A stretch of 34,828 nucleotides of DNA, from the IMG/VR virus record IMGVR_UViG_3300020470_000086, positions 1 through 34,828 of that record. One strand, given 5' to 3'. Position 1 is the first letter of the stretch; every line of letters starts with the position of its first letter. The notes under the pieces are model-generated. The model was not told where the DNA came from, did not search any database, and saw only the letters and a program-made list of their open reading frames with translations. Made by a program: the position numbers and the translations under genes. Shown one piece after another: positions 12,375-33,414 of the stretch. This stretch comes from a virus.

Positions 12375-12630
12375 TACCAGGTACCTGCTGACGATAATTC
12401 TGATTAGGAACAGGTGTACCTGTTACAGGTCCAGTCTTAGTCGGCCATGCCTCCAAGAGTGCTGCCTTAACTTCTTCTCTGACAATCTGTCTTAGCTCGG
12501 TTGCCTCTGCTTCAAGTCTCTTCTGAGGACCACCTTGCATATTATCGATAACTTGACCGCCACCTACGACACCACCAGTGCCTACAACAGCGACTGCGGT
12601 ACCATAGGTTGCTAATTTTTGTACGTCCAT
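12358..12630 (-). CDS. Small membrane-associated protein
   Basis: The start at ATG 12630 (90 residues) overlaps the oxygenase stop as TAATG, which decides against the longer frame to 12687. The N-terminus has a Gly/Val/Ala-rich hydrophobic segment (about residues 8-27). A helical charged region (38-60) and a Pro/Thr/Asn-rich tail follow. The family is not recognised. The gene is sandwiched between the oxygenase and the larger membrane-associated protein with overlaps on both sides. Confidence 0.7.
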   Translation of the reverse strand: MDVQKLATYGTAVAVVGTGGVVGGGQVIDNMQGGPQKRLEAEATELRQIVREEVKAALLEAWPTKTGPVTGTPVPNQNYRQQVPGNVRNK

Positions 12631-13124
12631 TAGTTGTAAGTTGCTACTAATACTACTCTTCGATCCCTTAGAGGGAATCGATGGCAATGCTCACCTTCAA
12701 ATAATATTACATCATCTTCTATTGGTTCATGCACTTGACCTTCACAATGTGTATCACCACCTGCATTAGTTAGGTACACTAGCAAGTTGTAATGTGGGAA
12801 GTCATGGTCTACATGTGGTGCAGTATTCTGACTATTATAATACCAAGGATGAACTGCGTTAGCATTCAGTCTCAGTATACAATTAACAGCAAGATTATTG
12901 TAATCAATTATTTGATTCATTACAACATTCGCAAGGTCCATAAACTGAGAAGTGACCGCAGGATATCTACGGTCACTATAAGGTCTCTCTAAAAATACAT
13001 GCGAATAGAAATCGAAATCATCCTTAGGGTTCCTCTCAATGAACCATGGGAAATCATCCGATAACACAAGAGATTTGAAATCATCATACTCTTGTGTCAG
13101 TGGATTACCCAGTAGTTCTATCAT
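12630..13124 (-). CDS. 2-oxoglutarate/Fe(II) oxygenase-like protein
   Basis: The 164-residue protein shows the oxygenase core: HxD at H104/D106, an HYNLLVYLTN strand, a Gly-Gly-Asp-Thr turn and a DDVILFEG strand. The distal histidine is probably H146, with R156 ten residues later to bind 2-oxoglutarate. The signature is complete. The start overlaps the previous stop as TGATG. Substrate unknown; its neighbours are small membrane proteins. This gene stands apart from the oxygenase cluster at 14937-18345. Confidence 0.85.
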   Translation of the reverse strand: MIELLGNPLTQEYDDFKSLVLSDDFPWFIERNPKDDFDFYSHVFLERPYSDRRYPAVTSQFMDLANVVMNQIIDYNNLAVNCILRLNANAVHPWYYNSQNTAPHVDHDFPHYNLLVYLTNAGGDTHCEGQVHEPIEDDVILFEGEHCHRFPLRDRRVVLVATYN

Positions 13125-14953: not shown

Positions 14954-15584
14954 AGCACCTCTTGGAAGCAATACTTTCATTAACGTGGAAGTTTTGGACA
15001 AAGAAAACCTGTGTCAGTCGGTCTTCTCCCTTCATGTATCTATTTGTATGACCATGCCACTCCATAGCATCGTATACAATGCATCTATTATACACGTTCT
15101 TGACCTCTACGGTAGTCTCAAACTGTGCATTGTGTGTTTCGTATGAACAATTCTCATCATGCTCTTCTGGTATAAGTCTGTAGAGAGATGTACCACTACC
15201 AGGTGAAGGGTCGGGGTTGAGGTATACTACACCAGCACAGAAACATCCTGTATCATTGTGTATCAAGCCACGATTTAATGGGTTACTCTCATCACCTAGA
15301 CTAGGTATCTTCTGAAACTGTGATAGCACTGTGCCAGAGAATCCTTGAGTAACATCTGTAAAGAGAGTAAGAAACTTCAGACTCATGTCCTCAAACAGAT
15401 TCTGATCAATCTCATTGAGAGGCACAGTCCTTGTCCCAGGATAATGACCCTCAGTCTTATAATCTAAACTCAATGCAAACTCTCTTATACCATCTGGATC
15501 CCTATAAAATTTATCAAAAACTATTAAAGGGACATTCATGACTCCACCCTTAATCCCGACCTCTTGGTCTAGGTTGTCATGCAT
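14937..15584 (-). CDS. 2-oxoglutarate/Fe(II) oxygenase-like protein (DUF6445-like)
   Basis: Start ATG 15584 (215 residues) has GGAGG six bases upstream and overlaps the methylase stop; an internal ATG at 15539 also has a GGAG but very close. An HxD pair is present (H109, D111), followed by CAGVVYLNPDPSPGSGTSLYR. The later EWHGHTNRY segment (H177/H179) is followed by an arginine (R189). This matches the oxygenase fold; the layout resembles the DUF6445 family as I remember it. Substrate unknown. It separates the Dam-type methylase from gp62. Confidence 0.7.
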   Translation of the reverse strand: MHDNLDQEVGIKGGVMNVPLIVFDKFYRDPDGIREFALSLDYKTEGHYPGTRTVPLNEIDQNLFEDMSLKFLTLFTDVTQGFSGTVLSQFQKIPSLGDESNPLNRGLIHNDTGCFCAGVVYLNPDPSPGSGTSLYRLIPEEHDENCSYETHNAQFETTVEVKNVYNRCIVYDAMEWHGHTNRYMKGEDRLTQVFFVQNFHVNESIASKRCYGYDI

Positions 15585-16416
15585 ACAATGCCTCCAAGGG
15601 TGTACGGTTGATATCATAGTTGCATACTAGCAACTCTTTCTTCTGCTTATTGTCTGCCCTATGCTTCATACCATAGGTGATCTTAAATTCTTCTTGATGG
15701 AAGTCACCATATGCTTCCTTCAAAGCATCAGAGTTATTATATGTCACAAACCAGTCATGCTTACAGTCTCTACAGTGCTGTATAAATTCATCATGGTTGA
15801 ATGACTTATGCAACTCAGCATTACTTCCATATAGATAGACACCTATCTGATAAGGTGGGTCTAAGTATATGAATGTGCCATCACCAGGTGCATGCATGAC
15901 CTCAGAGTAATCATAATTAGTGATTCTCCATCCTTGAATGATGTCAGAGATATCTTTTAGATATGTTGCACCACGTGTTGTAAAATTCTGTCTTGATGCA
16001 GTAGCACTGAAGGAACTATTCTCTGTGAGTCCTGAATAGGAACACTTGTTAAGCACCCAGAATAATACTGCTCTATTAAAGTCATCCTCTTCAGTCTTTA
16101 TCTCTTCCTTAGCAGACTTAAACAACTCCTTAGCCCTATCCTCTGTGCTATGGTCTTGCTTGGTCTTTACCAATTCATCTGACAATTCATCACCATTATC
16201 TCTCAACTGCACCCAGAAGTTATACAAGTATTCATACTTGTCATTGATCCATACAGGGATGTCAGGATTCTTCTGTGCAAATAGTAACGCAACTGACCCA
16301 CCACCAATGAATGGTTCACGATACTCTTTTAAATCTGATGGGAATCTAGGAATAAAATCCTTTGCTACCCTAGACTTACCGCCTGGATAACGTAGTGGTG
16401 TCTTCAAAAATTTCAT
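15577..16416 (-). CDS. dam: DNA adenine N6-methyltransferase, Dam type
   Basis: The enzyme transfers a methyl group from S-adenosylmethionine to adenine in DNA. The 279-residue protein starts with the typical LRYPGGKSR and has motif I as EPFIGGGSV (34-42) and catalytic motif IV DPPY (186-189). A conserved LNKCSYSGL segment lies at about 122-130. This D12-class layout and length match T4 Dam (259 residues). The target is probably a short site such as GATC, which I cannot confirm. It likely protects phage DNA from restriction or regulates packaging. It lies in the accessory block between gp44 and gp62, with four-base overlaps. Confidence 0.92.
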   Translation of the reverse strand: MKFLKTPLRYPGGKSRVAKDFIPRFPSDLKEYREPFIGGGSVALLFAQKNPDIPVWINDKYEYLYNFWVQLRDNGDELSDELVKTKQDHSTEDRAKELFKSAKEEIKTEEDDFNRAVLFWVLNKCSYSGLTENSSFSATASRQNFTTRGATYLKDISDIIQGWRITNYDYSEVMHAPGDGTFIYLDPPYQIGVYLYGSNAELHKSFNHDEFIQHCRDCKHDWFVTYNNSDALKEAYGDFHQEEFKITYGMKHRADNKQKKELLVCNYDINRTPLEALYA

Positions 16417-17072
16417 AATACGTTCAAGTTAAGTTGTGGCATGCCGTGTGGACCTTGATTGATTTTTCCAGATGGAAACGCATTAAAACTCATAGTCCAT
16501 CTATCATAATCCTCTAGTTGTCTACCAGAGAAATGTTTTAACCAAGAAGGAAATAGAATTAACTTCCCTGGTTTGGCCTCATACATCTCATTGATGCCTA
16601 GATTCCAACCATCCATCTTCATCTTCTCCTCTTCCCATATATCCATGACATTATATGTCCTAGGTATAACTGGGTCATCAAAGACCGTAGGAGCACCGTC
16701 AGTAAGGTAGTATACAGCACTAAGATATGCCATAGGATGACGATGTAATGGATGTCCCCACCCACTCTTACGTGGTGCGTGGTTGAACCAGCATAGACTA
16801 ATATCTAATTTTTCGCAATCAAGTTTAAACTTTTCTTTATACTGCTCCAGACAGTCCTCAAAGAATAATACAATCCTATCTACACATGGCACGTCACGAT
16901 GCTTGTGTATATCAGGTCTACTGGTGACAACACCCTCAGGAAAATTATCCTGGCCTGCTGGAAAGTCTCTTGCCCAAGTTGTAAAGTCTTTTACCCACTG
17001 CTCATCATGACCGATGTCAGTATACTCCATGATTATGGTAGGGAAATAATGTAGTTCCTTCTCTTCAATCAT
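16413..17072 (-). CDS. Putative 2OG-Fe(II) oxygenase, tandem copy 1 (PF13759-like)
   Basis: This 219-residue protein belongs to the group whose signature is HxHP followed by a YLSAVYYLT strand, Phe-Asp-Asp-Pro, then LILFPSWLKH and a closing Arg...SFNAFPSG. Here the residues are H110, H112, H180 and R191. The usual acidic residue of an HxD triad is replaced by histidine in the same spacing. The ATG overlaps the previous gene's stop (ATGA). It is one of three neighbouring paralogues, all of similar length and C-terminal motif (GxINQG or GDINMG), clearly from duplication. Substrate unknown. Confidence 0.82.
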   Translation of the reverse strand: MIEEKELHYFPTIIMEYTDIGHDEQWVKDFTTWARDFPAGQDNFPEGVVTSRPDIHKHRDVPCVDRIVLFFEDCLEQYKEKFKLDCEKLDISLCWFNHAPRKSGWGHPLHRHPMAYLSAVYYLTDGAPTVFDDPVIPRTYNVMDIWEEEKMKMDGWNLGINEMYEAKPGKLILFPSWLKHFSGRQLEDYDRWTMSFNAFPSGKINQGPHGMPQLNLNVL

Positions 17073-17749
17073 TTCTTATAGTCTCTTAGTGGTAATGGTC
17101 CTAGAATATCCCATCCTCTTACTTTTGGTACATTAACCATTGGACGTTGCCATCCACCCATATTGATATCGCCCTGAGGAAATGTATTAAATGCAATGGT
17201 AAACCTCTGCACATCATCATTGTTAGCAAGACTAGCATGAATTAACCAACTAGGAAAGATGATTAACCCTCCAGGTCCACCGTGATAATGCCATCTACAC
17301 TCAGCACCAGGACCACCGTCAAGATGTAACGATGCCCACTCTCTCCTGTCTATAGGGTCCAAGAAAATAGTAGGTGCTCCAGGTGTCATGTAATAGATGC
17401 CACTCAACCACGACATAGGATGCCTATGAGCGTCATGATGATGACCTGAGCAGGGGTCTGCTCTGTTACACCATGCTTTATTAACCATTATTCTATCACA
17501 ACACCAGCCATTGTCAAAATGTAAGGTGTCTATACACTGTTGAAACCACTGCATGAGTGGTCTAAACTCTGGGTCCGTCTGTATATCATCAGTGGTGCCA
17601 ACACCACCTCTACCATCCCAGTCTAGGTTAAAATTTCTATACTCCTGCTTACGAGTAACCTCAAGGGCTTGATTATTCAATTCCTCAGGTGCTTTAAAAC
17701 TATAGCACCTTACTGGGAATACATTCTCAGTAGTATATTTCTGTCTCAT
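17069..17749 (-). CDS. Putative 2OG-Fe(II) oxygenase, tandem copy 2 (PF13759-like)
   Basis: This 226-residue paralogue has H108 and H110 in the HRHPMSWLSGIYY segment, preceded by an unusual histidine run (103-105). The distal H171 is in LIIFPSWLIH, with R182 and an AFNTFPQGDINMGG closing strand. Extra histidines and a Gly-rich loop (145-160) distinguish it from its neighbours. It overlaps both adjacent genes by four bases. The fold assignment is good; activity and substrate are unknown. Confidence 0.82.
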   Translation of the reverse strand: MRQKYTTENVFPVRCYSFKAPEELNNQALEVTRKQEYRNFNLDWDGRGGVGTTDDIQTDPEFRPLMQWFQQCIDTLHFDNGWCCDRIMVNKAWCNRADPCSGHHHDAHRHPMSWLSGIYYMTPGAPTIFLDPIDRREWASLHLDGGPGAECRWHYHGGPGGLIIFPSWLIHASLANNDDVQRFTIAFNTFPQGDINMGGWQRPMVNVPKVRGWDILGPLPLRDYKK

Positions 17750-18345
17750 ATTACATCTAGGTTGGCAATGCCTTGATTAATCTTCCCATATGGAAGTGCA
17801 TTAAAGCTTATACTATATCTATCAGACTCGGCCATTTCAGTATCATGGACTAACCATGAAGGGAAGATAAGTAACGTGCCTGGAGTTGGAGTATACTTAA
17901 CTATCTGTGGACCATTCTCTAGTATACCAGTCTCTGTAATCTTTGGCAACGTATGTATATCCCACTGTCCTAATGACCTCTGCTGTAGAGGATCATAGAA
18001 CACTAAAGGAGCACCGTCAGTCAGAAAATAGACGGCACTCCAATAGGAATTAGCATGTCTGTGTGCTTCTTGTCTTGTACCAGGTCGATAACGGTTAGCC
18101 CACATAGATGTTATCTTAAACCCATCACAGTCAAAGCATTTGTCCTGATGTATATCATATAGACACTGCTCAAACCACGTGACTAGGGGTCTGAATCTCT
18201 CATCATGGTGTAACTCTGGACCTGCATTAAGAATACCAGTCTCCCTCTCTTTAGTAGGGAGTTTATTAATCACACGTATCCAGTCATGGTTTAGATCACT
18301 AGACCATTCATATATTTCTACTGGATATATGCTATTGGTCTTCAC
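17746..18345 (-). CDS. Putative 2OG-Fe(II) oxygenase, tandem copy 3 (PF13759-like)
   Basis: The 199-residue paralogue has H95 and H97 in AHRHANSYWSAVYFLT, distal H167 in LLIFPSWLVH and R176 before a SFNALPYGKINQG close. The proline after HxH is Ala here. It shares the GAPLVFYDP strand with its neighbours. The start overlaps the preceding 134-residue gene by 14 bases. It is the most N-terminally shortened of the three copies. Confidence 0.82.
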   Translation of the reverse strand: MKTNSIYPVEIYEWSSDLNHDWIRVINKLPTKERETGILNAGPELHHDERFRPLVTWFEQCLYDIHQDKCFDCDGFKITSMWANRYRPGTRQEAHRHANSYWSAVYFLTDGAPLVFYDPLQQRSLGQWDIHTLPKITETGILENGPQIVKYTPTPGTLLIFPSWLVHDTEMAESDRYSISFNALPYGKINQGIANLDVI

Positions 18346-18736
18346 TCTTCTTTCTCCGTGGGACTTTAATGGTCCATGCTGGTGCTACAAGGTCAACCAT
18401 CTCAAACTCTTGCTTAGCTTTCTCTCTCAACTTCGCTGCCTTCTCATAGTCTTGCAGCTCTTTCTCACGTCCTGGCTCAGGTTGTATCTCACCATAGTGA
18501 GGATCCCATATCTCAGGGTGCTCATGGTTGTCAAAGAATTCAAGGATACTACTATCAATCATATGATATAGAGTGTCCCAAGTTAGTGTCCTTCTTAGAG
18601 TTTCTGCTATGTATTCTGCTTGATTAACAGACATCTCTTGCTTAAGGAACTCACCTCTTGCCCATACTAATTCATTCAGATCTATTGTGATCTGGACATT
18701 GGTATGGACACCAGTGTTGTCATAGGGTTCCGTCAT
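18332..18736 (-). CDS. Hypothetical protein between pyrE and the oxygenase cluster
   Basis: This 134-residue soluble protein is mostly helical, with a charged centre (about 85-108, Lys/Glu/Arg-rich, possible coiled coil) and a basic C-terminus (PRRKKSEDQ). No family is recognised. The ATG overlaps the pyrE stop by four bases, consistent with a coupled gene. No catalytic motif is evident. Confidence 0.75.
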   Translation of the reverse strand: MTEPYDNTGVHTNVQITIDLNELVWARGEFLKQEMSVNQAEYIAETLRRTLTWDTLYHMIDSSILEFFDNHEHPEIWDPHYGEIQPEPGREKELQDYEKAAKLREKAKQEFEMVDLVAPAWTIKVPRRKKSEDQ

Positions 18737-19248
18737 AACAAATCGGGGATTGTATATAAACTAAAGAGTTCTAAATGTGCAGCAGCCATGTTAATGTCTG
18801 CTTCACCAGCAACCTGTCTATCGACTATGGTTGCGACTCTGTTAACAGTATAACCTGCTTCGCGTAATTTCTCAACAGCCTTTATGGCACTTTGTCCAGT
18901 GGTCACTACGTCTTCAAGAACTGTAACAAGTGCTCCTTCTACCTGAGGTGGACCCTCTATCCATGCTTGAGTGCCATGACCTTTTGGTTCCTTACGGATG
19001 ATAAAAGCATCAAGGTTACTAACCATAGCAACACCTGCTACTAAGGGGTCAGCACCTAGTGTGAGACCTGCCACTGCTACAGACCCTTCCTCTACTAGAC
19101 CTGCCAGTTGTGTTGATACCTGACGTAAACCAGCACCACTAAGTGTAACATTCTTACAGTTAACATAGTAATCTGTATCTTGTCCTGATGATAACTTAAA
19201 GTTACCTACCTTAAAGCACTTGTCCTTTAGTAGTTGAAGTAAAGTCAT
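18733..19248 (-). CDS. pyrE: Orotate phosphoribosyltransferase-like PyrE
   Basis: PyrE converts orotate and PRPP to orotidine 5'-phosphate in pyrimidine synthesis. The 171-residue protein shows the N-terminal FKLSSGQDTDYYVNCK substrate segment, the GLTLGADPLVAGV strand-turn and the RKEPKGHG catalytic loop (85-92). The PRPP-binding motif VTVLEDVVTTGQSA (108-121) follows. All features of an intact enzyme are present at slightly below usual length. Start ATG 19248 overlaps the gp44 stop (AAATGA), which is preferred to the GTG at 19260. A phage copy could raise UMP supply for DNA synthesis. Confidence 0.92.
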   Translation of the reverse strand: MTLLQLLKDKCFKVGNFKLSSGQDTDYYVNCKNVTLSGAGLRQVSTQLAGLVEEGSVAVAGLTLGADPLVAGVAMVSNLDAFIIRKEPKGHGTQAWIEGPPQVEGALVTVLEDVVTTGQSAIKAVEKLREAGYTVNRVATIVDRQVAGEADINMAAAHLELFSLYTIPDLL

Positions 19249-20189
19249 TTGAATTGGCACCTCATCATAAGTTCGGTCATGAATGCGACCATGTTAATCT
19301 CCTGGTCAACCACAAATGCTGCCTTATATTGATACTCTGAAATAATAAGGACACATTCTGGTATAGATCCAGGGTCTAGGTAAGTATAGAGGTTGTCATA
19401 TATCTTACGCATGATAACTCTAGGTTCGTTATCCATATTCTGAGCAACCCACTTCTTCATGTTGGTAAACTCTTTCTTACGGAGGAAACCTATGACCTTA
19501 TCAATGCTAAAATCATTTGATGACCCTAGTATACCTGCATCTATCTTACCAGTTGCAGCATACCTTTGCAACTCATTCAATGTCCTACGAAAATCAGGGA
19601 AATACTTCATGACCACTTCGGCCACCACCTTCTCCTCGTACTTAATCATCTCCATCTCAAGGATGACTCTGACCTTATGAAAGAATGCTTCTGCTAATTT
19701 CTTTTTATCTGCTCCTTTGACCCCAAAATCGACCACTGAACACCTGCTATGGAGGGGTTCTATGACCTTGTTTTTATAGTTACACGTGAATATGAACCTG
19801 CAGTTCTTCTGAAACTCCTCAATGGATGCCCTAAGTAAGAGCTGTACGTCTGGCGTGGTATTATCTGCTTCATCAATAATGATAACCTTGTGACGAGACT
19901 CAGATGTAAGAGAAACAGTACTAGCAAAGGTCTTTGCCTGATTGCGTACAGTGTCCAAGAATCTACCTTCATCAGACCCATTAATGACATAGTAATCTGC
20001 TCCTAATTCGTTACATAATGCCTTAGCAATGGTTGTTTTACCAACTCCTGCCGACCCTGCAAGCAAAAGGTTTGGTATCTCACCCTTGTCCAAGAATCCT
20101 TGGAATAATTTCTTAGTATTCTCAGGAAGAATGCACTCCTCCACTGTCTGTGGTCGATACTTTTCTACCCAGAGAAACAATTCAGACAT
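19245..20189 (-). CDS. 44: Clamp-loader ATPase gp44
   Basis: gp44 is the AAA+ ATPase that, with gp62, opens and loads clamp gp45. Start ATG 20189 (314 residues) gives the family N-terminus LWVEKYRP; a longer frame to 20261 lacks support. Walker A is GSAGVGKT (45-52), Walker B is VIIIDEAD around residue 103, and a Ser-Arg-Cys arginine-finger segment follows near 150. Length equals T4 gp44 (319). It overlaps the upstream oxygenase gene by eight bases. In T4 gp62 follows directly; here an accessory block of seven genes (pyrE to the gene at 14937) intervenes. Confidence 0.95.
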   Translation of the reverse strand: MSELFLWVEKYRPQTVEECILPENTKKLFQGFLDKGEIPNLLLAGSAGVGKTTIAKALCNELGADYYVINGSDEGRFLDTVRNQAKTFASTVSLTSESRHKVIIIDEADNTTPDVQLLLRASIEEFQKNCRFIFTCNYKNKVIEPLHSRCSVVDFGVKGADKKKLAEAFFHKVRVILEMEMIKYEEKVVAEVVMKYFPDFRRTLNELQRYAATGKIDAGILGSSNDFSIDKVIGFLRKKEFTNMKKWVAQNMDNEPRVIMRKIYDNLYTYLDPGSIPECVLIISEYQYKAAFVVDQEINMVAFMTELMMRCQFK

Positions 20190-20742
20190 AGTTTGAATTA
20201 ATAATGATACGATTGGGATGTTTCTTCGGAGAATGACCTGTATGTAGGTGAAGACCCTCAAAGATTAATAGTCTATTTGGTTTGGGACTTACCCTAGTCG
20301 CTTGTGTAAGCCGACCATTGTGAGGAAACTTCTCATTGAAGATGATAGTATCACCATCAGTCTCATTGAGATAATATATGGCTGCCATGTGGGGTGTTTC
20401 AAAATCCACATGAGGATGATGCACAATCCCATTAGGATTATACAACGTCATGTCTGCACGTGCTCTAACTGTTACATTTTCACACCCAATATAGTCTTGA
20501 ATCTGAAATAACAGGGGCATCACTAGGGATGACACTGGGTTAGGTGGAATCATCTTATCCTTATCAAGGATGTTATGACTAAATCCTTGCTTACCTAACT
20601 CAGGGTTACCACCCCTAGTAATATCACCCTGATAATACCAGTCCATCTCATCACTACCAAAGAAATCTAAGAGTTCTTGGTGGTAATGAGGTGTCAGGAA
20701 ATTATCTTCAAGGCTCCAGTGCGATGTAGTAGCTGAGGTCAT
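20182..20742 (-). CDS. 2-oxoglutarate/Fe(II) oxygenase-like protein between gp45 and gp44
   Basis: This 186-residue protein has a complete-looking signature: HVD at H111/D113, then MAAIYYLNETDGDTIIF, an RLLIFEGLHLH strand with H167, and R178 eleven residues later. It is close in layout to the enzyme at 12630-13124. The start overlaps gp45 by 35 bases, and the stop overlaps gp44. Its insertion between clamp and clamp-loader genes is unusual. Substrate unknown. Confidence 0.85.
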   Translation of the reverse strand: MTSATTSHWSLEDNFLTPHYHQELLDFFGSDEMDWYYQGDITRGGNPELGKQGFSHNILDKDKMIPPNPVSSLVMPLLFQIQDYIGCENVTVRARADMTLYNPNGIVHHPHVDFETPHMAAIYYLNETDGDTIIFNEKFPHNGRLTQATRVSPKPNRLLIFEGLHLHTGHSPKKHPNRIIINSNYV

Positions 20743-21427
20743 TATGTGTCAGTGAGATAAACGCTGCAATATTCTTCCTACTAATGGTAACATGGTAACT
20801 ACCATCAAGTAACTTGAGGTTCTCTACCTTGAAACAATAACAGAAGTTACGACGCTCATCAGTCACCTCAGAAGGTCTTTCAAATGTCACCTTCTTCAGT
20901 GGTAAGGAGAATACATTAGAGGTATCATTCTTCTTGTCCTTAACGAGGACACTATACTCACCTTCAAATCCTTGGACACACAAATCTTCCACACCATATA
21001 CCTTTGCAGCTTGCATCAACTGCTGAATATCCCTCATAGGTAAGTCAAAATGGATCTCCTTATCAGGAAGGTCACCATTAAACTCAGGTGGGGTTACAAT
21101 GATACCAGGATCACTGTAATAGAATGTTGTCTTACCTTGTGTCTCCTCATCATATACTACTACCTTCTTCTTATCTGGGAAATAAAGATAAGGTGTCTTG
21201 AATAATGACAGAGCACCTAGAAACAGTGGCAAGTCATAGATTGCCATCTGCTCAGGAATAAACTCCTTGATTTGTGTCATGGCAATGATATTCTTGTTGA
21301 CTGAAATAGTCTCAAGAAACTTACCAGGTTCAATAAGAATAGACTTATTGATAGTGCTGAAATTGCGGAGCAAATCTATGGTTGCTTTGCTCAATTTTAC
21401 TTGTCTTACTGCTTCTAATTGTGTCAT
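20708..21427 (-). CDS. 45: Sliding clamp gp45
   Basis: gp45 is the trimeric ring that tethers the polymerase and, in T4, also activates late transcription with gp33 and gp55. The 239-residue protein matches the family in length (T4: 228) and in its repeating beta architecture. It includes the N-terminal LSKATIDLLRNFSTINKSI segment and the closing AAFISLTHNDLSYYIALEP strands. The start overlaps the DUF3310 gene's stop by four bases. It is clearly intact. Confidence 0.93.
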   Translation of the reverse strand: MTQLEAVRQVKLSKATIDLLRNFSTINKSILIEPGKFLETISVNKNIIAMTQIKEFIPEQMAIYDLPLFLGALSLFKTPYLYFPDKKKVVVYDEETQGKTTFYYSDPGIIVTPPEFNGDLPDKEIHFDLPMRDIQQLMQAAKVYGVEDLCVQGFEGEYSVLVKDKKNDTSNVFSLPLKKVTFERPSEVTDERRNFCYCFKVENLKLLDGSYHVTISRKNIAAFISLTHNDLSYYIALEP

Positions 21428-21741: not shown

Positions 21742-22839
21742 TTACTCTGACCCTAGTAGATTGTCAAGGTTCTCAATGTCAACCTCGTTGTCTATCTTAT
21801 CATACAATTCGAGGAATGACTGCTTAGTCTCATCATCGAATCTGTTTAGACAGACTGTGATTGCCTTTAACCTATCATTAAAGATAGCAAAAGCACGTAT
21901 AATATGCACTAACCTACGTGTTGAGATAACTTCATCAACTCCACCCTCTCTAAAGGTCTTACGGATGATGTCTGCCCATGTAGTAAGGTTAGCAATATAC
22001 TTATCATCGCAGCAGTCTAACTCTTTACAATAATTATTGAGCATTCTAACCTCAGTCTGGGGCTTAGGATACTCTTGCTCAAATGTGATGGGGAATCTCT
22101 CTAAGAATGCTTCGTTGAGCACGTTAGTTCCAATAAATCTCCCGTCTTCGGATCCTTTACCTTTAGTGTTAGCAGTTGCAACGACTGTGAATCCGTCTTT
22201 TGGTTGGACGTATCGTCCGACCTTCTTGAGAAAGACTCCTTTTCCTTCAAGAATGCTCTGGAGACAGAGAATTTTATTACTGGCGAGGTCGAGTTCGTCA
22301 AGGAGCAAGACAGATCCTCTTTCAAGTGCTTCGATGACTGGGCCATTGTGCCAGACGGTATTGCCATCAACAAGGCGGAAGCCGCCAATAAGATCATCTT
22401 CATCAGTTTCTACCGTAATGTTTACTCGGATAAGATCCCTCTTTGCTTGAGCACAAGCTTGCTCTACCCCAAAGGTTTTACCGTTACCACTGAGTCCAGT
22501 GATGAATATGGGATAGAATACTTTACTACTCAAAATCTTTTTAAGGTCAACAAAGTTACCAAACGGTACAAAGTGCTCGTCTCTCTGTGGTACCAAGTCT
22601 TTAACTTCAGGTGACACTAGAGTAACTGTTTGCTCTAGTTGTTCTCTTGCTTCTGCCACTGTCAAATTCCATACACCACGCTTAACCTTATACTGACTGA
22701 GATATTTGGTCACAGTCTGATAAGTTATGTTGAATTTATCCACTGCCTTCAGCAAATGCTCGGTCTTTACTTCACGACCGAAATTTCCTATCAAGAAGTC
22801 CCTAAGGTCTTCAGTTGTTACATTGCATAATTGAGGCAT
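21742..22839 (-). CDS. CobS/MoxR-like AAA+ ATPase
   Basis: The start ATG 22839 (365 residues) has AAAGGG about six bases upstream. Walker A is GLSGNGKT (115-122) and Walker B VLLLDELD (177-184), followed by a sensor-1 segment VVATANTKG and a RFPITFEQEYP segment. These belong to the MoxR/CobS branch of AAA+ proteins, annotated cobS in many cyanophages after the cobaltochelatase subunit. The first 110 residues form a helical N-terminal domain with two HTH-like stretches. MoxR-type ATPases commonly act with a VWA-domain partner; such a protein lies two genes upstream (23401-25596). Cobalamin synthesis is thus not established. A TATAAT -10 lies 28 bases before the start. Confidence 0.88.
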   Translation of the reverse strand: MPQLCNVTTEDLRDFLIGNFGREVKTEHLLKAVDKFNITYQTVTKYLSQYKVKRGVWNLTVAEAREQLEQTVTLVSPEVKDLVPQRDEHFVPFGNFVDLKKILSSKVFYPIFITGLSGNGKTFGVEQACAQAKRDLIRVNITVETDEDDLIGGFRLVDGNTVWHNGPVIEALERGSVLLLDELDLASNKILCLQSILEGKGVFLKKVGRYVQPKDGFTVVATANTKGKGSEDGRFIGTNVLNEAFLERFPITFEQEYPKPQTEVRMLNNYCKELDCCDDKYIANLTTWADIIRKTFREGGVDEVISTRRLVHIIRAFAIFNDRLKAITVCLNRFDDETKQSFLELYDKIDNEVDIENLDNLLGSE

Positions 22840-22866
22840 CGTTTCCCTTTTGTTGTTTATACTATT

Positions 22867-22894
22867 ATTATACTGCCTATTTCCCACTTGTGGA
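22867..22894 (-). promoter_or_regulatory. Possible sigma70-like promoter for the CobS-like gene
   Basis: The minus strand has a perfect -10 (TATAAT, 22872-22867) with a weaker -35 (TCCACA, 22894-22889) at a 16-base spacing, 28 bases before the start codon. The -35 has four of six consensus bases. It overlaps the end of the upstream gene. Confidence 0.4.
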
Positions 22895-23404
22895 GCCTAT
22901 CCAGTACGGTTTGTTATCTGGCACACGGAGATAGTTGTCCCTCACCCATGGCTTACTATTAAGGTAGATACGATATGCTGTTATAGTATCAATAGTATTA
23001 TCATACTTCAAATCATCAGGCATTGACCTAACAAATGGAGTATGTTTCTCTGGACATCCTTCTGGTGCTACCAATGCTGCTATTCTAATGGTCCTCTCAC
23101 ACGCATGTTTCTTACCATACCTGCTTTCATACTCATTGCATAGAGAAATACCATGCTGTAACAACCATTGAAGGTTATCATCATGCTCTGCTGCCCATTT
23201 AGTGCAGGGATGGTTTCTATAAGCACCCTTATCAGTCTTATATGGTTCGTTATTTGCTTTAAATACTGGTCCTATATTGTGATACCACTTAGAAAAGACC
23301 AGTGCAATCATCTGACTGGTCTCCACAGGCATCTTCACAATAAGTTTGTCTGGCAACGCAAACGCTGCCAGAGCTGGTTCCTCATCTACTGCAAATATAT
23401 TCAT
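22877..23404 (-). CDS. Conserved phage protein of unknown function (MNIF type)
   Basis: This 175-residue protein begins MNIFAVDEEPALAAFALPDK then LIVKMPVETSQMIALVF. I remember this start from conserved uncharacterised proteins in many large phages. A central KWAAEHDDNLQWLLQHGISLCNEYESRYGK segment is helical, and TPFVRSMPDD plus ITAYRIYLNSK complete the pattern. No catalytic residue set is certain. It is located between the VWA metalloprotease-like gene and the AAA ATPase, overlapping the former by four bases. Confidence 0.75.
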   Translation of the reverse strand: MNIFAVDEEPALAAFALPDKLIVKMPVETSQMIALVFSKWYHNIGPVFKANNEPYKTDKGAYRNHPCTKWAAEHDDNLQWLLQHGISLCNEYESRYGKKHACERTIRIAALVAPEGCPEKHTPFVRSMPDDLKYDNTIDTITAYRIYLNSKPWVRDNYLRVPDNKPYWIGSTSGK

Positions 23405-25596
23405 GCAATCTGTTTAATAAACGAAGAGAGTATCTTCTTGTTGTTTGCCTTAGCTTTCAGGGATTTCTTAAATGCATTCTTAATCTGCCCCTTAGTAGCA
23501 TCCTCAGCAACCTCGAACTCTACCTCTGTATTTAGAATCTTTGTGGATAAAAAGTAAAGCTCTTGGAATCCTAGTATACTAGCACCAACAGTCTTGTTTT
23601 TAGTCCACTCCTTGTGCTTCTTCTTGAATGCTGCTAACTCTAACTCTTGACCCAAGTAATGTGTAGCCTCACGAGGTGTGCAGATACGGAATCCTAAGAA
23701 ATTACACTGTGGAAACTTACTCTTCATGTATCTTAGTAGTTGCTTAGTAAATCCACCACGCTCCCAACGTTGTATCTTACCAGTCTTGCGGTCTCTTAAC
23801 TGTGTATTGTGACGGACAGAGCACCTACGGATATATTTCTGAGATTCACCAGTGTAATCTAACTCAACTTCCTGCCATGCATTTGACCACTGTGCTTCAC
23901 CATCAGACAGTATAGATACATGCACCTTCTCAACACCATTCTTCTTCTGGAATGATGGTATAAGTGTCTGAAGACATGCTATTGCCTCATTCAATGGAGT
24001 GCCACATAGATTCATGTGTGGTGGGACATAATAAGGTATTTGTGATGTAAATTCCCATCCTCTCTTGTGAGTATCACCATAACGTGAATCTATTACAAAA
24101 GCAACTCTCCATACATCCAATGCATAAGTATCAAACGTTGCATTGTTTAGACTACTGCTAAGGAAATTTAATAGATGGAAGTCCTCAGGTATGTTTAAGT
24201 TTCCTGGAGTACCATCCTTTGGTTCTATCTGGTCATTCCAAGTAGCATCCTGCACGAATGCATATACTTCAAATGGAATAGATGCTTTACGACAGAAATA
24301 ACATAGTGAAAGTAATTGCTTGTAAGTATCAAGAATAACCTCTGCCATAGACCCTGACCAATCTAGTAAGAAGATAAGACCATGATTCTTACCATCAGGT
24401 TTTACTGTTATCTTCTTAAAGAGGTCAGTATTCCACTTAAATGTATGCAACTTAGCAGTATCAAGGACACCAGTCCGTGCTACTGTCTCACGTGAGTATG
24501 CAGCAGCAGACTTCTTCATCTCAAACTCTTTAACAAGATAGTTTACTTCCCTTGAGCAGTCTCTTTTAAATTTTTTGTATTCACTATCTACTACTGTCCA
24601 ATCAGGTTTACCCTTGTAATAGTCATGCTCAGGATCTAAGAATTGCTGACTACAATAATAATTAACAGTCTCTTCACGTATATCATCTGGAGATACTACC
24701 ACCTTCTTCATATCAATGTCAGGTACCTCACAGTAGAAGATATTCTCGTGTTGATTTCCACTGATATCCCTCAAGTTTCTCTCCAGACTCTTATCTGTTA
24801 GTGCCTCATCCGAATCCCTATTAGTCTCACCACCTTCCTTACCCATCAACTTCTCAAGTAACTCTTGCTCGTAACTAGGAGTATCTAAATCAGCAGGCTC
24901 ATGCTGTGGTGATGGTTGAGGTCTAGGTCTCTCTGCTTCTTCATTTACATCCTTATCTGGTTGTCCGTTCTCACCAGTCTCAGGTCCAAGGTCAAACATT
25001 GAATGATCTTCAGTCTTACCAGGGTTTGTAGTCCCTTGTCTCTCTAATTTTTTCTGTGCTTCGTATCTATAAACTGCTACTGCTGCCTTAACTGCCTCCT
25101 CAAACGTTTCTGTAACCCCTACAGCGTCTCTGAGGGACTCCTCAGCAGGTTCAAAGGGTATTAAGGAGTATGGACCTATTTTATAGTATAGATTGATGCG
25201 GTCAATCAACTTCAGTGTCTTAGGATCCTCATCTTCCACACCAAAGAAGTCATCCTCATTCAATTCTTGGTATCCCTGATAGAAATCCTTCTGTAAACCA
25301 GGAAACTTACGCTTCATCAACTTCTCAACCCTAGCATCCTCTGTCACATTAATATATGATCTAGGTACCTCTGCCTCTTCCCAATCATCAACAGGAGTAA
25401 AGAGTGCATGCCCTACCTCATGCCCTACTAGCATGTTATATACTCTGTCAGAGCAATCCCAGAGGGGTAACTTTAAAACTCTCTGGTCTACGTCAAAGGA
25501 TGCAGTCTCACACCTTACATGCTCTACAATAAGGTTCTCGGTTGCAAGAAGTTTAGCGAGTGCTCCTTTTACTTCGTTGTATCTAAAGGATGGCAT
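23401..25596 (-). CDS. CobT-like protein with metalloprotease motif and VWA domain
   Basis: The 731-residue protein has three parts. Residues 1-180 include HEVGHALF (HExxH at 59-63) and NVTEDARVE (83-91), a set of zinc-binding positions typical of gluzincin-like proteases. Residues about 190-290 are charged, low-complexity and probably disordered. Residues about 400-650 form a von Willebrand A domain with a MIDAS motif DWSGS (412-416), a later CGTPLNEAI segment and an SDGEAQW segment. This matches the CobT/VWA class that partners MoxR/CobS ATPases, one of which lies downstream. The likely function is ATP-driven remodelling or proteolysis of a target, which is unknown. Confidence 0.85.
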   Translation of the reverse strand: MPSFRYNEVKGALAKLLATENLIVEHVRCETASFDVDQRVLKLPLWDCSDRVYNMLVGHEVGHALFTPVDDWEEAEVPRSYINVTEDARVEKLMKRKFPGLQKDFYQGYQELNEDDFFGVEDEDPKTLKLIDRINLYYKIGPYSLIPFEPAEESLRDAVGVTETFEEAVKAAVAVYRYEAQKKLERQGTTNPGKTEDHSMFDLGPETGENGQPDKDVNEEAERPRPQPSPQHEPADLDTPSYEQELLEKLMGKEGGETNRDSDEALTDKSLERNLRDISGNQHENIFYCEVPDIDMKKVVVSPDDIREETVNYYCSQQFLDPEHDYYKGKPDWTVVDSEYKKFKRDCSREVNYLVKEFEMKKSAAAYSRETVARTGVLDTAKLHTFKWNTDLFKKITVKPDGKNHGLIFLLDWSGSMAEVILDTYKQLLSLCYFCRKASIPFEVYAFVQDATWNDQIEPKDGTPGNLNIPEDFHLLNFLSSSLNNATFDTYALDVWRVAFVIDSRYGDTHKRGWEFTSQIPYYVPPHMNLCGTPLNEAIACLQTLIPSFQKKNGVEKVHVSILSDGEAQWSNAWQEVELDYTGESQKYIRRCSVRHNTQLRDRKTGKIQRWERGGFTKQLLRYMKSKFPQCNFLGFRICTPREATHYLGQELELAAFKKKHKEWTKNKTVGASILGFQELYFLSTKILNTEVEFEVAEDATKGQIKNAFKKSLKAKANNKKILSSFIKQIA

Positions 25597-25765
25597 TGGT
25601 TAATTCGTGTATATGTACAGTATAAGACCCCCGACGGTGGTTTGGGGGTCCAAGTAGACGCTTTTTTAACTGTCTGCGTCTTTCACGGGCGGACCTCAGT
25701 GCTTGAGGTCTTAACGTCCGTTTAGCATCCTTCTTACTATGATGCTGCCAATTTGGAAAAATCAT
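25583..25765 (-). CDS. Possible small basic protein filling the gp46-VWA gap
   Basis: A 60-codon frame starts at ATG 25765, with AAGG three bases upstream inside the 3' end of gp46, and ends 14 bases into the VWA gene. Its product is very basic from residue 11 on (many Lys and Arg, including RSARERRRQLKKR), followed by GPPNHRRGSY. Exact filling of the gap with overlaps on both sides is what this genome does elsewhere. However, the region also contains three hairpins, so it could be an RNA element instead. Confidence 0.4.
   Translation of the reverse strand: MIFPNWQHHSKKDAKRTLRPQALRSARERRRQLKKRLLGPPNHRRGSYTVHIHELTNAIL
25626..25710. other. Cluster of three inverted repeats between gp46 and the VWA gene
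   Basis: Three inverted repeats lie in a row: 25626-25632 with 25644-25650 (7 bp, five G-C pairs in a row), 25656-25661 with 25676-25681 (6 bp), and 25692-25698 with 25704-25710 (7 bp, 5-base loop). None has a clean T-run in the minus-strand direction, so they are not obvious terminators. They may be mRNA processing or stability elements or lie within a small coding frame. Confidence 0.5.
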
Positions 25766-27398
25766 TGACCTTCTCAAAGCGTAGGGTTTTCTCAAATTTA
25801 TCAAGAAGTAGCTCCCCTTTGTGGGAAATGACAAATAAATTAACATTCTTACCCAGACTCTTGAGAATCTTGAGTAATTCATCAGTACTAGCGTCATCTA
25901 GGGATGAATCAAAGACCTCATCCAGTATTAGTAGGTTAGTACTAGCTGAATTCTTGAGTTTTGCTATCTCTCTCCATGTAAAGAGGAGTGCTAGGTCTAT
26001 TTTCTGCTTTTCACCCTCGGAAAAGGATGCATAAGAGAATTCATCACGGAATCTACTCTTAATTACTTCATTAAACTCATCGTCAAGGGTGAAATTGACG
26101 TAAAAGTCCATCGATTGTAGGTATTTATTGATTAGTTGGTTAATTATAGGGATAAACTTAGATATAATCTTAGATTTGATACCACTGTCCTTCAATAGTG
26201 ATCCAACCACCTTCAAATCAGTCATATCACTGTTGACTTTGGCACATCTTTCCTCTGTTCCTGACAAAACATTCTTATATTCAAGGAGTTGCACCCTTTC
26301 TGCCTCTATATCAGGTGCTTCCTTGTTTATATCACCCATTAACTTCTTAAATTCTCTGTTGAGACTCTTATTATCGTGCTGCAACTCATTAATTCTCTGT
26401 GCATACTCACGATACTCAACGATTGTAGTGTTAGCACGGTTCAATGAGTCAGTAATAACGTTAAGACCTTCACTAAACCTCTTCTGCCTTGCCTGTGCTC
26501 CATTAATGAGCTCAGTTTTGTCCATTAGTATCTGATTACAGGTAGGACACTCATCATTCTCCCAGTAAAATTTCAAATCTTTCTCTGCCTTCTCTAGGTT
26601 ATGAGATATTTTCACCCTCATCTCCTTCATTTCATCATATCTTGTCTGTATCTCACTCATTCCAGCAATAACATCAGTTAATCTCTGCATATCTGTGTTG
26701 TTACTGTCTATCCTTCCCTTAATCTCAGACATTCGCTTCTCTGCTTTGTCCTTATACTCTTGATTAAGCTTCTCCATGTTGACTATAGTCTTGTTTTGCA
26801 TGTCCACATGGGAGTTAGCAAGCTTTAATTCATGCTCACACTCTGTAATAATATCCTTTGCTTCCTTAACCTTATCCTTAAGGAGAAGATTCATACGTGA
26901 GAAGACCTGGATATCGAGTAAATCTTCGATAACTTCTCTCCTGACACCTGCTCCAAGCTGCATGAATGGGACAAATGTGGATGAACCGAGGATGACAACC
27001 TGTGTAAAGGACTTATAGTTGAATTTGAGAATCGACTGTTCGAGATATTTCTGATAGTCTCTGCTTGCTGCATCTTGATCGATGAGATTATCGTTCCTAT
27101 AAATTTCAAAAACATTTGGCTTGATACCTCTGACTACTTTATACCTAACACTACCAATAGAGAACTCAATCTCTACCATAGTATCACGTTCATTTATGCT
27201 ATTTACTAACTGTGACTTAGTGATTTTACGGAAGGGTTTGTTGAACAATACAAAGCACAGGGCATCTAACATAGTAGACTTACCTGCACCATTGTTTCCC
27301 ACAACCAAATGAGAAGGTGACTTGTTGATGTTTAATGTAGTGAAAGAGTTACCAGTCGCAAGAAAATTCTTCCAACTAATCTTTTCGAACGTTATCAT
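25737..27398 (-). CDS. 46: Recombination endonuclease subunit gp46 (Rad50/SbcC type)
   Basis: gp46 with gp47 resects double-strand ends for recombination-dependent replication and degrades host DNA. Start ATG 27398 (553 residues) gives the family N-terminus MITFEKISWKNFLATGN. Walker A is GNNGAGKS (34-41). A long central coiled coil is interrupted by a CPTC zinc hook near residue 280. A signature FSEGEKQKIDLALLF and Walker B LLILDEVFDSSLD are near residues 450-490. Length agrees with T4 gp46 (560). The start overlaps the DUF3110-like gene by 23 bases. Confidence 0.95.
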   Translation of the reverse strand: MITFEKISWKNFLATGNSFTTLNINKSPSHLVVGNNGAGKSTMLDALCFVLFNKPFRKITKSQLVNSINERDTMVEIEFSIGSVRYKVVRGIKPNVFEIYRNDNLIDQDAASRDYQKYLEQSILKFNYKSFTQVVILGSSTFVPFMQLGAGVRREVIEDLLDIQVFSRMNLLLKDKVKEAKDIITECEHELKLANSHVDMQNKTIVNMEKLNQEYKDKAEKRMSEIKGRIDSNNTDMQRLTDVIAGMSEIQTRYDEMKEMRVKISHNLEKAEKDLKFYWENDECPTCNQILMDKTELINGAQARQKRFSEGLNVITDSLNRANTTIVEYREYAQRINELQHDNKSLNREFKKLMGDINKEAPDIEAERVQLLEYKNVLSGTEERCAKVNSDMTDLKVVGSLLKDSGIKSKIISKFIPIINQLINKYLQSMDFYVNFTLDDEFNEVIKSRFRDEFSYASFSEGEKQKIDLALLFTWREIAKLKNSASTNLLILDEVFDSSLDDASTDELLKILKSLGKNVNLFVISHKGELLLDKFEKTLRFEKVNDFSKLAAS

Positions 27399-27654
27399 TT
27401 TGTTGTGGCGGTATAACAAATTCATCTGGTGAGATGAGAGTGAATGCATATCCATGCATTTTACAATTCTCCTTCACCTGATCCTCTTCAACCTCAGTCA
27501 CCTCAAGGGTGCGAGGATAATCGATGGCCTTCAGCAGATCATAATACCGAACAGCATCATCCTTGTCAAGGAATATCTGCACGACCCTTTCCACTGAGGA
27601 ATCATCCCTGACAGCGTACACTCCATTAGTTTTTTTATCTGTCAGGATAAACAT
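27376..27654 (-). CDS. DUF3110-like small protein between gp47 and gp46
   Basis: Start ATG 27654 (92 residues) overlaps the gp47 stop as TGATG and has GGAGG four bases upstream. The sequence fits DUF3110, common in cyanobacteria, as I remember it: an N-terminal Val/Ile strand, VVQIFLDKDDAVRYYDLLKAIDYP, then an acidic segment, a Cys, GYAF and FVIPPQQN. The function of the family is unknown. Presence of a cyanobacterium-like domain supports the host assignment. Confidence 0.7.
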   Translation of the reverse strand: MFILTDKKTNGVYAVRDDSSVERVVQIFLDKDDAVRYYDLLKAIDYPRTLEVTEVEEDQVKENCKMHGYAFTLISPDEFVIPPQQNDNVRKD

Positions 27655-32754: not shown

Positions 32755-33414
32755 TTATTTAGGTAAATCAAAGAGTATATTGTCAATATAACTCAACGCC
32801 CAATCCTTGTCAAACCAAGCACCTAACGTTGCTATTGTCTTCTCATTCTTTCTTTGTTGCGTACTATAGTGTATCTGGTCATCCATTGCAATCATTGCAT
32901 CAATATAATCCATCTTCTCTGCCTTACCTACTGCATCTCTGTAGATAGTAAGGTATTCCTGCAACACTTTAAAGTACATAATCTGCTCAACATCATCTCT
33001 GATACGTTGAAACTTCATATAATGAGAGAATATATCACCCCACTCAGGTAGCAACTGTGGTTCCTTAAACCTATAGTTTTGTGATACTGCTTGAATCTTA
33101 GGATATACCCAGTCACTACCTCTAGTTGGTGAGACATCTACGATTGAGATATTCCTATACTTACTAGCAATGATATCACATCCAAAGATGGGTATATTAT
33201 AGTTATAGTCAGGGAAGAAGACACAATGTAATACATCTAGTCCTTTAACCTTACATGTCTCAAGATGAATCTTGCGGAGAGCACGTGCTGTCCACATCTC
33301 ATTCTTAATCCATAGGTCATCCTTCTCTATCCATTCATACTCACACTCCATTCTCTCGTGACCGTCGAGACTTTCCGCAACGGTCCGAATAAACATCGCA
33401 ATTTCATCTACCAC
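32755..33414 (-). CDS. pcyA: Ferredoxin-dependent bilin reductase, PcyA-like
   Basis: This 219-residue protein resembles phycocyanobilin:ferredoxin oxidoreductase, which reduces biliverdin to phycocyanobilin using reduced ferredoxin. The family segments are RKIHLETCKVKGLDVLHCVFFPDYNYNIPIFGCD and SIVDVSPT, and the C-terminal QRKNEKT...LFD matches the PcyA end. The three catalytic positions known in PcyA (Glu76, His88, Asp105 in Synechocystis) correspond to E52, H63 and D80. It is shorter than the host enzyme (about 245), lacking part of the N-terminus. PebS, another phage bilin reductase, has a different C-terminus, so PcyA is favoured. Start GTG 33414 has AGGG four bases upstream. Confidence 0.9.
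   Translation of the reverse strand: MVDEIAMFIRTVAESLDGHERMECEYEWIEKDDLWIKNEMWTARALRKIHLETCKVKGLDVLHCVFFPDYNYNIPIFGCDIIASKYRNISIVDVSPTRGSDWVYPKIQAVSQNYRFKEPQLLPEWGDIFSHYMKFQRIRDDVEQIMYFKVLQEYLTIYRDAVGKAEKMDYIDAMIAMDDQIHYSTQQRKNEKTIATLGAWFDKDWALSYIDNILFDLPK

Follow-up and report, generated by a model that had tools for sequence, protein, structure and literature searches.

A predicted zinc peptidase-VWA protein and a MoxR/CobS-type AAA+ ATPase form an obligate gene pair in T4-like cyanophages, with a possible role in phage DNA metabolism

Introduction

The gene cobS is a core gene of cyanophages (PMC3037559), and it is cited both as a core gene that serves as a signature of T4-like cyanophages and in support of viral manipulation of the ocean B12 supply. 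What do this ATPase and its partner do for the phage? Liu et al. 2021 read the cyanophage 'cobST' cluster as hijacking host CobN and considered 'peptidase' a mistaken annotation (PMC8651126), and Iyer et al. 2021 described MoxR-vWA-metallopeptidase systems in group 2.2 jumbo phages, for which they proposed a role in virion assembly (PMC7824862). We addressed the question at one locus of the virus record IMGVR_UViG_3300020470_000086, whose 34,828 nucleotides (positions 1 to 34,828) are referred to here as the window. A first-pass annotation, made from the sequence alone, had placed three open reading frames in 21742-25596, and all three are present there on the minus strand. Their products are called PEP, MID, and AAA:

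23401..25596, minus strand: PEP, predicted zincin-type metallopeptidase with acidic linker and VWA domain, 731 residues (phrog_459 'peptidase', E 7.7e-241)
22877..23404, minus strand: MID, Pyr_excise-like/phrog_624 protein, 175 residues, a neighbor and not a core part (Pfam and phrog matches)
21742..22839, minus strand: AAA, MoxR/CobS-type AAA+ ATPase, 365 residues from the ATG at 22839 (AAA_5, phrog_249)

Results

PEP and AAA are an obligate pair

AAA was found in 68 of the 84 contig loci that carry PEP, always downstream and on the same strand, at a median distance of 474 bp and a maximum of 3.8 kb; in the remaining 16 the contig ends no more than 2.4 kb after PEP. PEP and AAA are thus obligate neighbors in 68 of 68 informative loci, PEP being a VWA protein with a complete metal ion-dependent adhesion site (MIDAS). 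The first-pass annotation had described the ATPase and the HExxH-VWA protein as paired components of a MoxR/CobS-type ATPase-VWA system. That description holds, the two always occurring together, and PEP and AAA very probably work as one ATPase-VWA unit. The check it had proposed, co-occurrence of all three genes, was positive for the pair and negative for the triplet, as MID lies between PEP and AAA in only 6 of 18 loci; the unit is therefore the pair.

Nearly all T4-like cyanophages carry the pair as core genes. PEP was found in 463 phage records and AAA in 465 (at least 80% of the AAA query covered), with equal counts for the two under Synechococcus (365), Cyanophage (61), and Prochlorococcus (24), these counts being compared by organism name and not paired record by record. 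In GTDB, the pair was also matched in genomes assigned to Prochlorococcus, Planctomycetota, Acidimicrobiaceae, and Chloroflexi (loci L081-L084), apparently on contigs of T4-like phages; T4-type replication genes were confirmed in L082-L084. The Planctomycetota, Acidimicrobiaceae, and Chloroflexi matches were rejected as cellular genes because of these T4-type genes alongside, which mark them as phage contigs binned with a host.

PEP has invariant peptidase and MIDAS motifs

From N to C terminus, PEP comprises a zinc-peptidase motif (HExxH plus NxxED), a linker rich in acidic residues, and a VWA domain whose MIDAS is complete. The sites are listed below, where invariance refers to 51 aligned PEP relatives with identities down to 29%:

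25408..25422, minus strand: HEVGH, residues 59-63, with predicted zinc ligands H59 and H63 and predicted catalytic E60; invariant in 51 of 51 relatives; predicted helix 50-66
25330..25350, minus strand: NVTEDAR, N83 to R89; N83, E86, D87, and R89 invariant; predicted helix 79-97
24742..25029, minus strand: acidic disordered linker, residues 190-285, 26% D+E; predicted local distance difference test (pLDDT) score below 50 over most of 190-261
24349..24363, minus strand: MIDAS motif DWSGS, residues 412-416 (D412, S414, S416); invariant
23899..23907, minus strand: SDG, with MIDAS residues D565 and G566; invariant

The MIDAS is completed by T533 (about position 24000). Because the catalytic residues (H59, E60, H63, N83, E86, and D87) and the MIDAS residues (D412, S414, S416, T533, and D565) are invariant across the relatives, these motifs are far from chance. 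PEP shows the zincin sequence pattern in both alignment and predicted structure, with HExxH on a helix and an invariant candidate third ligand downstream; from zincin topology, this ligand is predicted to be E86, 23 residues after H63. No Pfam or NCBIfam family matched PEP at a meaningful score. Its AlphaFold model (mean pLDDT 76.5, with a low-confidence linker at 190-261) found VWA/MIDAS domains as its best PDB matches, including NorQD chain G and MDN1-MIDAS, and a search of PDB sequences with the PEP profile returned low-complexity matches only.

AAA is a MoxR-type ATPase outside the CobS family

AAA has the domain and motifs of a MoxR/CobS/NorQ-type AAA+ ATPase. It matches AAA_5 (E 2.9e-16) and phrog_249 (E 1.6e-130) and contains Walker A (residues 115-122), Walker B (178-182), sensor 1 (221-224), an arginine-finger region (246-249), and sensor 2 (306-309), nearly all of them invariant in 32 relatives. 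Against PDB, the AAA profile matched CobS 9ujv (5e-30) and Midasin (3e-58), and also NorQ and CbbQ. The match to the CobS model TIGR01650 (69 bits, E 3.8e-19) does not reach the curated cut-off of 558.55 bits, and in a tree the ATPases of T4-like phages form their own clade outside CobS. As PEP matched neither CobT model (TIGR01651, PF06213) at E<=1 in NCBIfam or Pfam, both proteins are formally outside the CobT and CobS families.

A GTG at 22887 was considered as the AAA start and rejected: relatives start at the same MPQLCNVT, and the ATG at 22839 is preceded by AAAGGGAAAC. The true start is almost certainly this ATG, and MID and AAA therefore do not overlap.

The peptidase domain is intact in mobile elements and degenerate in CobT and CbbO

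HExxH is absent from six of six true CobT proteins, which have a GDSMALR-like sequence in its place. It is intact in the CobT-like proteins of an SSU5-like phage-plasmid, Roseobacter phage CRP-810, an IncC plasmid, a Providencia plasmid, and one Acinetobacter element. A CbbO (L109:4711-7005) has HAACH in place of HExxH, and LLEDARVERLAARRFPGL. An EDARVE-like segment is kept in the true CobT proteins (L091, L100-L104) and a CbbO.

The N-terminal domains were compared as profiles with hhalign, the E-values being those of single comparisons. The PEP domain matched its mobile-element relatives at 98-99% (E 4e-14 to 4e-17), and these relatives in turn matched the CobT domain at 94-95% (E 1e-7 to 8e-9). 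Controls for these comparisons, with columns shuffled or the profile reversed, did no better than E 0.06. PEP also matched the CbbO domain (92%, E 5e-7), against 0.016 for the lowest E-value among 20 shuffles. The direct comparison of PEP with CobT was not significant (10.7%, E 0.003; 0.2% in the other alignment mode), so that homology to CobT is transitive, through the intermediates. In one NorD N-terminus, no relation was detectable. Given the profile matches and the motif loss, CobT and CbbO contain a degenerate version of the domain that PEP keeps intact, which suggests that both descend from a protease-VWA protein.

The first-pass annotation had taken HExxH to point beyond chelatase activity alone. 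This agrees with its strict constraint in PEP and its loss in true CobT, which make proteolysis or remodeling likelier than chelation alone.

The pair lies among replication and recombination genes

The window has a gene order typical of a T4-like cyanophage: a gp23 fragment, ferredoxin oxidoreductase, gp3, uvsY, uvsW, gp55, gp47, and gp46, followed by PEP, MID, AAA, DUF3310, gp45, and gp44, and then by oxygenases, dam, gp62, regA, hsp20, gp43, uvsX, gp41, and mazG. The two neighbors that frame the locus are:

25737..27455, minus strand: gp46, SbcC-like recombination nuclease subunit (phrog_77, E 6e-181)
20708..21427, minus strand: gp45, sliding clamp (phrog_223, E 5e-70; Pfam gp45-slide_C)

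The order around PEP, MID, and AAA is identical in Prochlorococcus phage P-TIM40, the closest annotated relative found, and T4-like phages have the pair between gp46 and gp45. In phage DLP6 it lies beside polymerase, uvsX, and primase-helicase. A related pair stands beside dnaE in SSU5-like, Acinetobacter, and BUCTxx99 elements and with ssb, Bet/RecT, and exonuclease in IncC and Providencia conjugative plasmids. The common denominator of these neighborhoods is replication and recombination. The conjugative plasmid clusters (L107:545-9438 and L099:787-8780) comprise ssb, recT/bet, a lambda-type exonuclease, an AAA ATPase, and an HExxH-VWA protein, and they also carry a DUF3150 or similar protein.

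Other features of the window were noted. The ferredoxin oxidoreductase (32755-33414, phrog_7278) points to a cyanobacterial host, and in P-TIM40 an annotated pcyA lies at another place within the replication region. Three 2-oxoglutarate-Fe(II) oxygenases (phrog_81) lie in a row at 16413-18345 in the replication region, adjoining a DNA methyltransferase (15577-16416). A phosphoribosyl transferase (18733-19260, phrog_32468) directly follows gp44, a place it does not have in P-TIM40 or HTVC008M.

Discussion

A proposed remodeling protease of phage DNA metabolism

We propose that PEP and AAA form an ATP-driven remodeling protease whose target belongs to phage DNA metabolism. If AAA behaves like CobS, NorQ, and CbbQ, it would assemble into a ring, to which PEP would attach by its VWA/MIDAS half; that half would also hold an acidic residue of the substrate by way of a Mg ion. 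ATP hydrolysis would serve to pull or reshape the substrate, which would be cut at the N-terminal zinc site of PEP. The substrate would most likely be a phage protein involved in DNA replication or recombination, given that the pair lies between gp46 and gp45 and in such modules of several unrelated mobile elements. The solved relatives CobS, NorQ, CbbQ, and Midasin, with the VWA matches of the PEP model, support the remodeling half of this mechanism. The residues of both active sites are invariant among PEP and AAA relatives at 29-64% overall identity, and this strict conservation supports the putative cutting half. For the mechanism as a whole, we judge the case to be evenly balanced.

Several observations weigh against the proposal. 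The zinc site is lost in a second Acinetobacter element (L094) and in phage BUCTxx99 (L095), and proteolysis is therefore not universally needed; the related Acinetobacter elements have a dead site, QEVAK (L094:2415-4334), and an intact one, HEVAH (L106:1843-3900), respectively. The AAA protein of CRP-810 groups with CobS in the tree, on long branches, and its gene neighbors form no clear replication module. Finally, the location among replication genes could in part be conserved T4-like gene order.

A broader reading is tentative and, in our view, rather doubtful: the pair may represent a widespread AAA+-driven zinc protease of mobile elements whose task is to remove or remodel proteins on DNA during replication or recombination, a function like that of a DNA-protein-crosslink protease with its unfoldase, and CobT and CbbO may have arisen from it, or from its cellular ancestor, by loss of the protease site. 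If so, the auxiliary metabolic gene 'cobS' of cyanophages is no B12 gene. The pair itself is already known; as far as we could find, the intact versus degenerate zinc site and the link to replication and recombination in unrelated elements are new arguments against the B12 reading. If PEP is an active metallopeptidase and the pair belongs to phage DNA metabolism, then the ecological reading does not hold, and the numbers of viral 'cobalamin genes' counted in metagenomes should be revised. The comparison further offers an origin, open to test, for two cellular activators of metal enzymes: CobT and CbbO carry what remains of a protease domain still alive in mobile elements.

Alternative explanations

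T4-like phages process their head proteins by proteolysis, which would suit a chaperone-peptidase of virion assembly or maturation. This role was proposed with the MoxR-vWA system of the Acidianus two-tailed virus (ATV) tail as analogy, and the MoxR plus metallopeptidase-vWA architecture described for jumbo phages matches PEP-AAA (PMC7824862). However, T4-like phages have the pair between 46 and 45, and DLP6 has it beside polymerase-uvsX-helicase, in neither case next to structural genes. Conjugative plasmids build no virions and yet carry an intact related pair, so assembly is not its general role. A weak point is that no ATAAATA late-promoter-like motif was present in the intergenic gap upstream of PEP, the motif not being enriched in the scan, which makes this result uninformative; the main text of a published study of expression timing names neither cobS nor peptidase. 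We regard an assembly role as unlikely.

A role in host takeover is as improbable. Here the complex would unfold or cleave a host protein, for example one bound to RNA polymerase or the nucleoid, and so free resources or block defense. Its presence as a core pair in nearly all T4-like cyanophages fits this, as does the finding of MoxR-vWA systems in conflict systems (PMC7159879). PEP, however, has no defense-family match and that of AAA is weak (E 7e-4), and the occurrence of the pair in elements with very different hosts argues for a substrate intrinsic to the element.

The cobaltochelatase reading, in which phage CobST and host CobN boost cobalamin synthesis and thereby aid ribonucleotide reductase (PMC8651126), fares worse, and we hold it to be quite improbable. 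In its favor, the VWA half of PEP and AAA are real relatives of CobT and CobS. CobN is present in Prochlorococcus genome G001 and in 40 of 98 sampled genomes of its phylum and CobT in none of the 98, which would leave a partner for the phage to complement; in cyanobacterial hosts, PEP occurs only in a phage-like contig. Against it stand the family cut-offs and separate ATPase clade described above, and a zinc site that is invariant in PEP and missing from every true CobT. A related intact pair also occurs on the E. coli plasmid pD228, yet E. coli, one of the hosts of such elements, gave no CobN match in the genome used as a control. The first-pass annotation saw no other cobalamin gene in the window, and we likewise found none among the window open reading frames scanned.

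Least probable is a three-protein complex with MID as substrate adaptor, as first suggested. In its favor, MID lies alongside, with a translational overlap, in the window (where its start codon lies inside the PEP stop codon, as ATGA), in P-TIM40, and in six contigs, and a phrog_624 protein occurs near the CobS/CobT pair of CRP-810 (L096:6037-6531). Beyond close relatives of the window, however, MID is not found between the two genes; 12 of 19 loci lack it within at least 7 kb of the pair, and its family is common among Acinetobacter and Vibrio phages in which no PEP relative was found. MID was rejected as a third subunit for this variable placement and independent distribution.

MID had been called uncharacterized, which needs correcting. 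It matches Pfam Pyr_excise (E 1.7e-11; 44.7 bits against a cut-off of 23) and phrog_624 'DNA binding protein' (E 1.6e-64). The catalytic residue of T4 endonuclease V is Thr2, at the processed N terminus; in MID this Thr is absent and residue 2 is Asn, invariant in 14 relatives. The AlphaFold model of MID is confident (pLDDT 91) and had no PDB match by fold or sequence. A separate 'DNA endonuclease V' gene (phrog_274) lies at 12630-13124.

Comparison with known systems

Midasin/Rea1 shares with the phage pair AAA+ modules that match the AAA profile and MIDAS-driven remodeling, but it is one giant eukaryotic protein of ribosome assembly, and we know of no peptidase domain in it. The Rubisco activase CbbQ-CbbO and NorQ-NorD likewise join a MoxR-type ATPase to a VWA protein, and the PEP domain is recognizable in CbbO; unlike PEP-AAA, both are cellular metabolic activators, with a degenerate zinc site in CbbO and none detected in one NorD. 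CobS-CobT (PDB 9uka, 9ujv, and related entries) is also an AAA+ and VWA/MIDAS pair, with a homologous VWA half, an acidic linker, and an N-terminal domain homologous to that of PEP via intermediates. It differs in that the CobT domain lacks HExxH, the window has no CobN or cobalamin gene, and AAA scores far below the CobS cut-off.

IncC and related conjugative plasmids and SSU5-like phage-plasmids encode an intact HExxH and MIDAS protein with an AAA+ partner, although their gene order differs, with a DUF3150 protein or recombination genes between or near the two, and identity to PEP is about 13-15%. The group 2.2 jumbo-phage pair (PMC7824862) is alike in architecture, a MoxR ATPase with a vWA protein bearing an N-terminal metallopeptidase; virion assembly was proposed for it, whereas PEP-AAA sits in the replication/recombination module of a T4-like cyanophage-type genome. 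The 'cobST' of tailed viruses (PMC8651126) is, in cyanophages, the PEP-AAA gene pair itself, and the view that 'peptidase' is a mistaken name for its member is contradicted by the invariant HExxH and NxxED of PEP.

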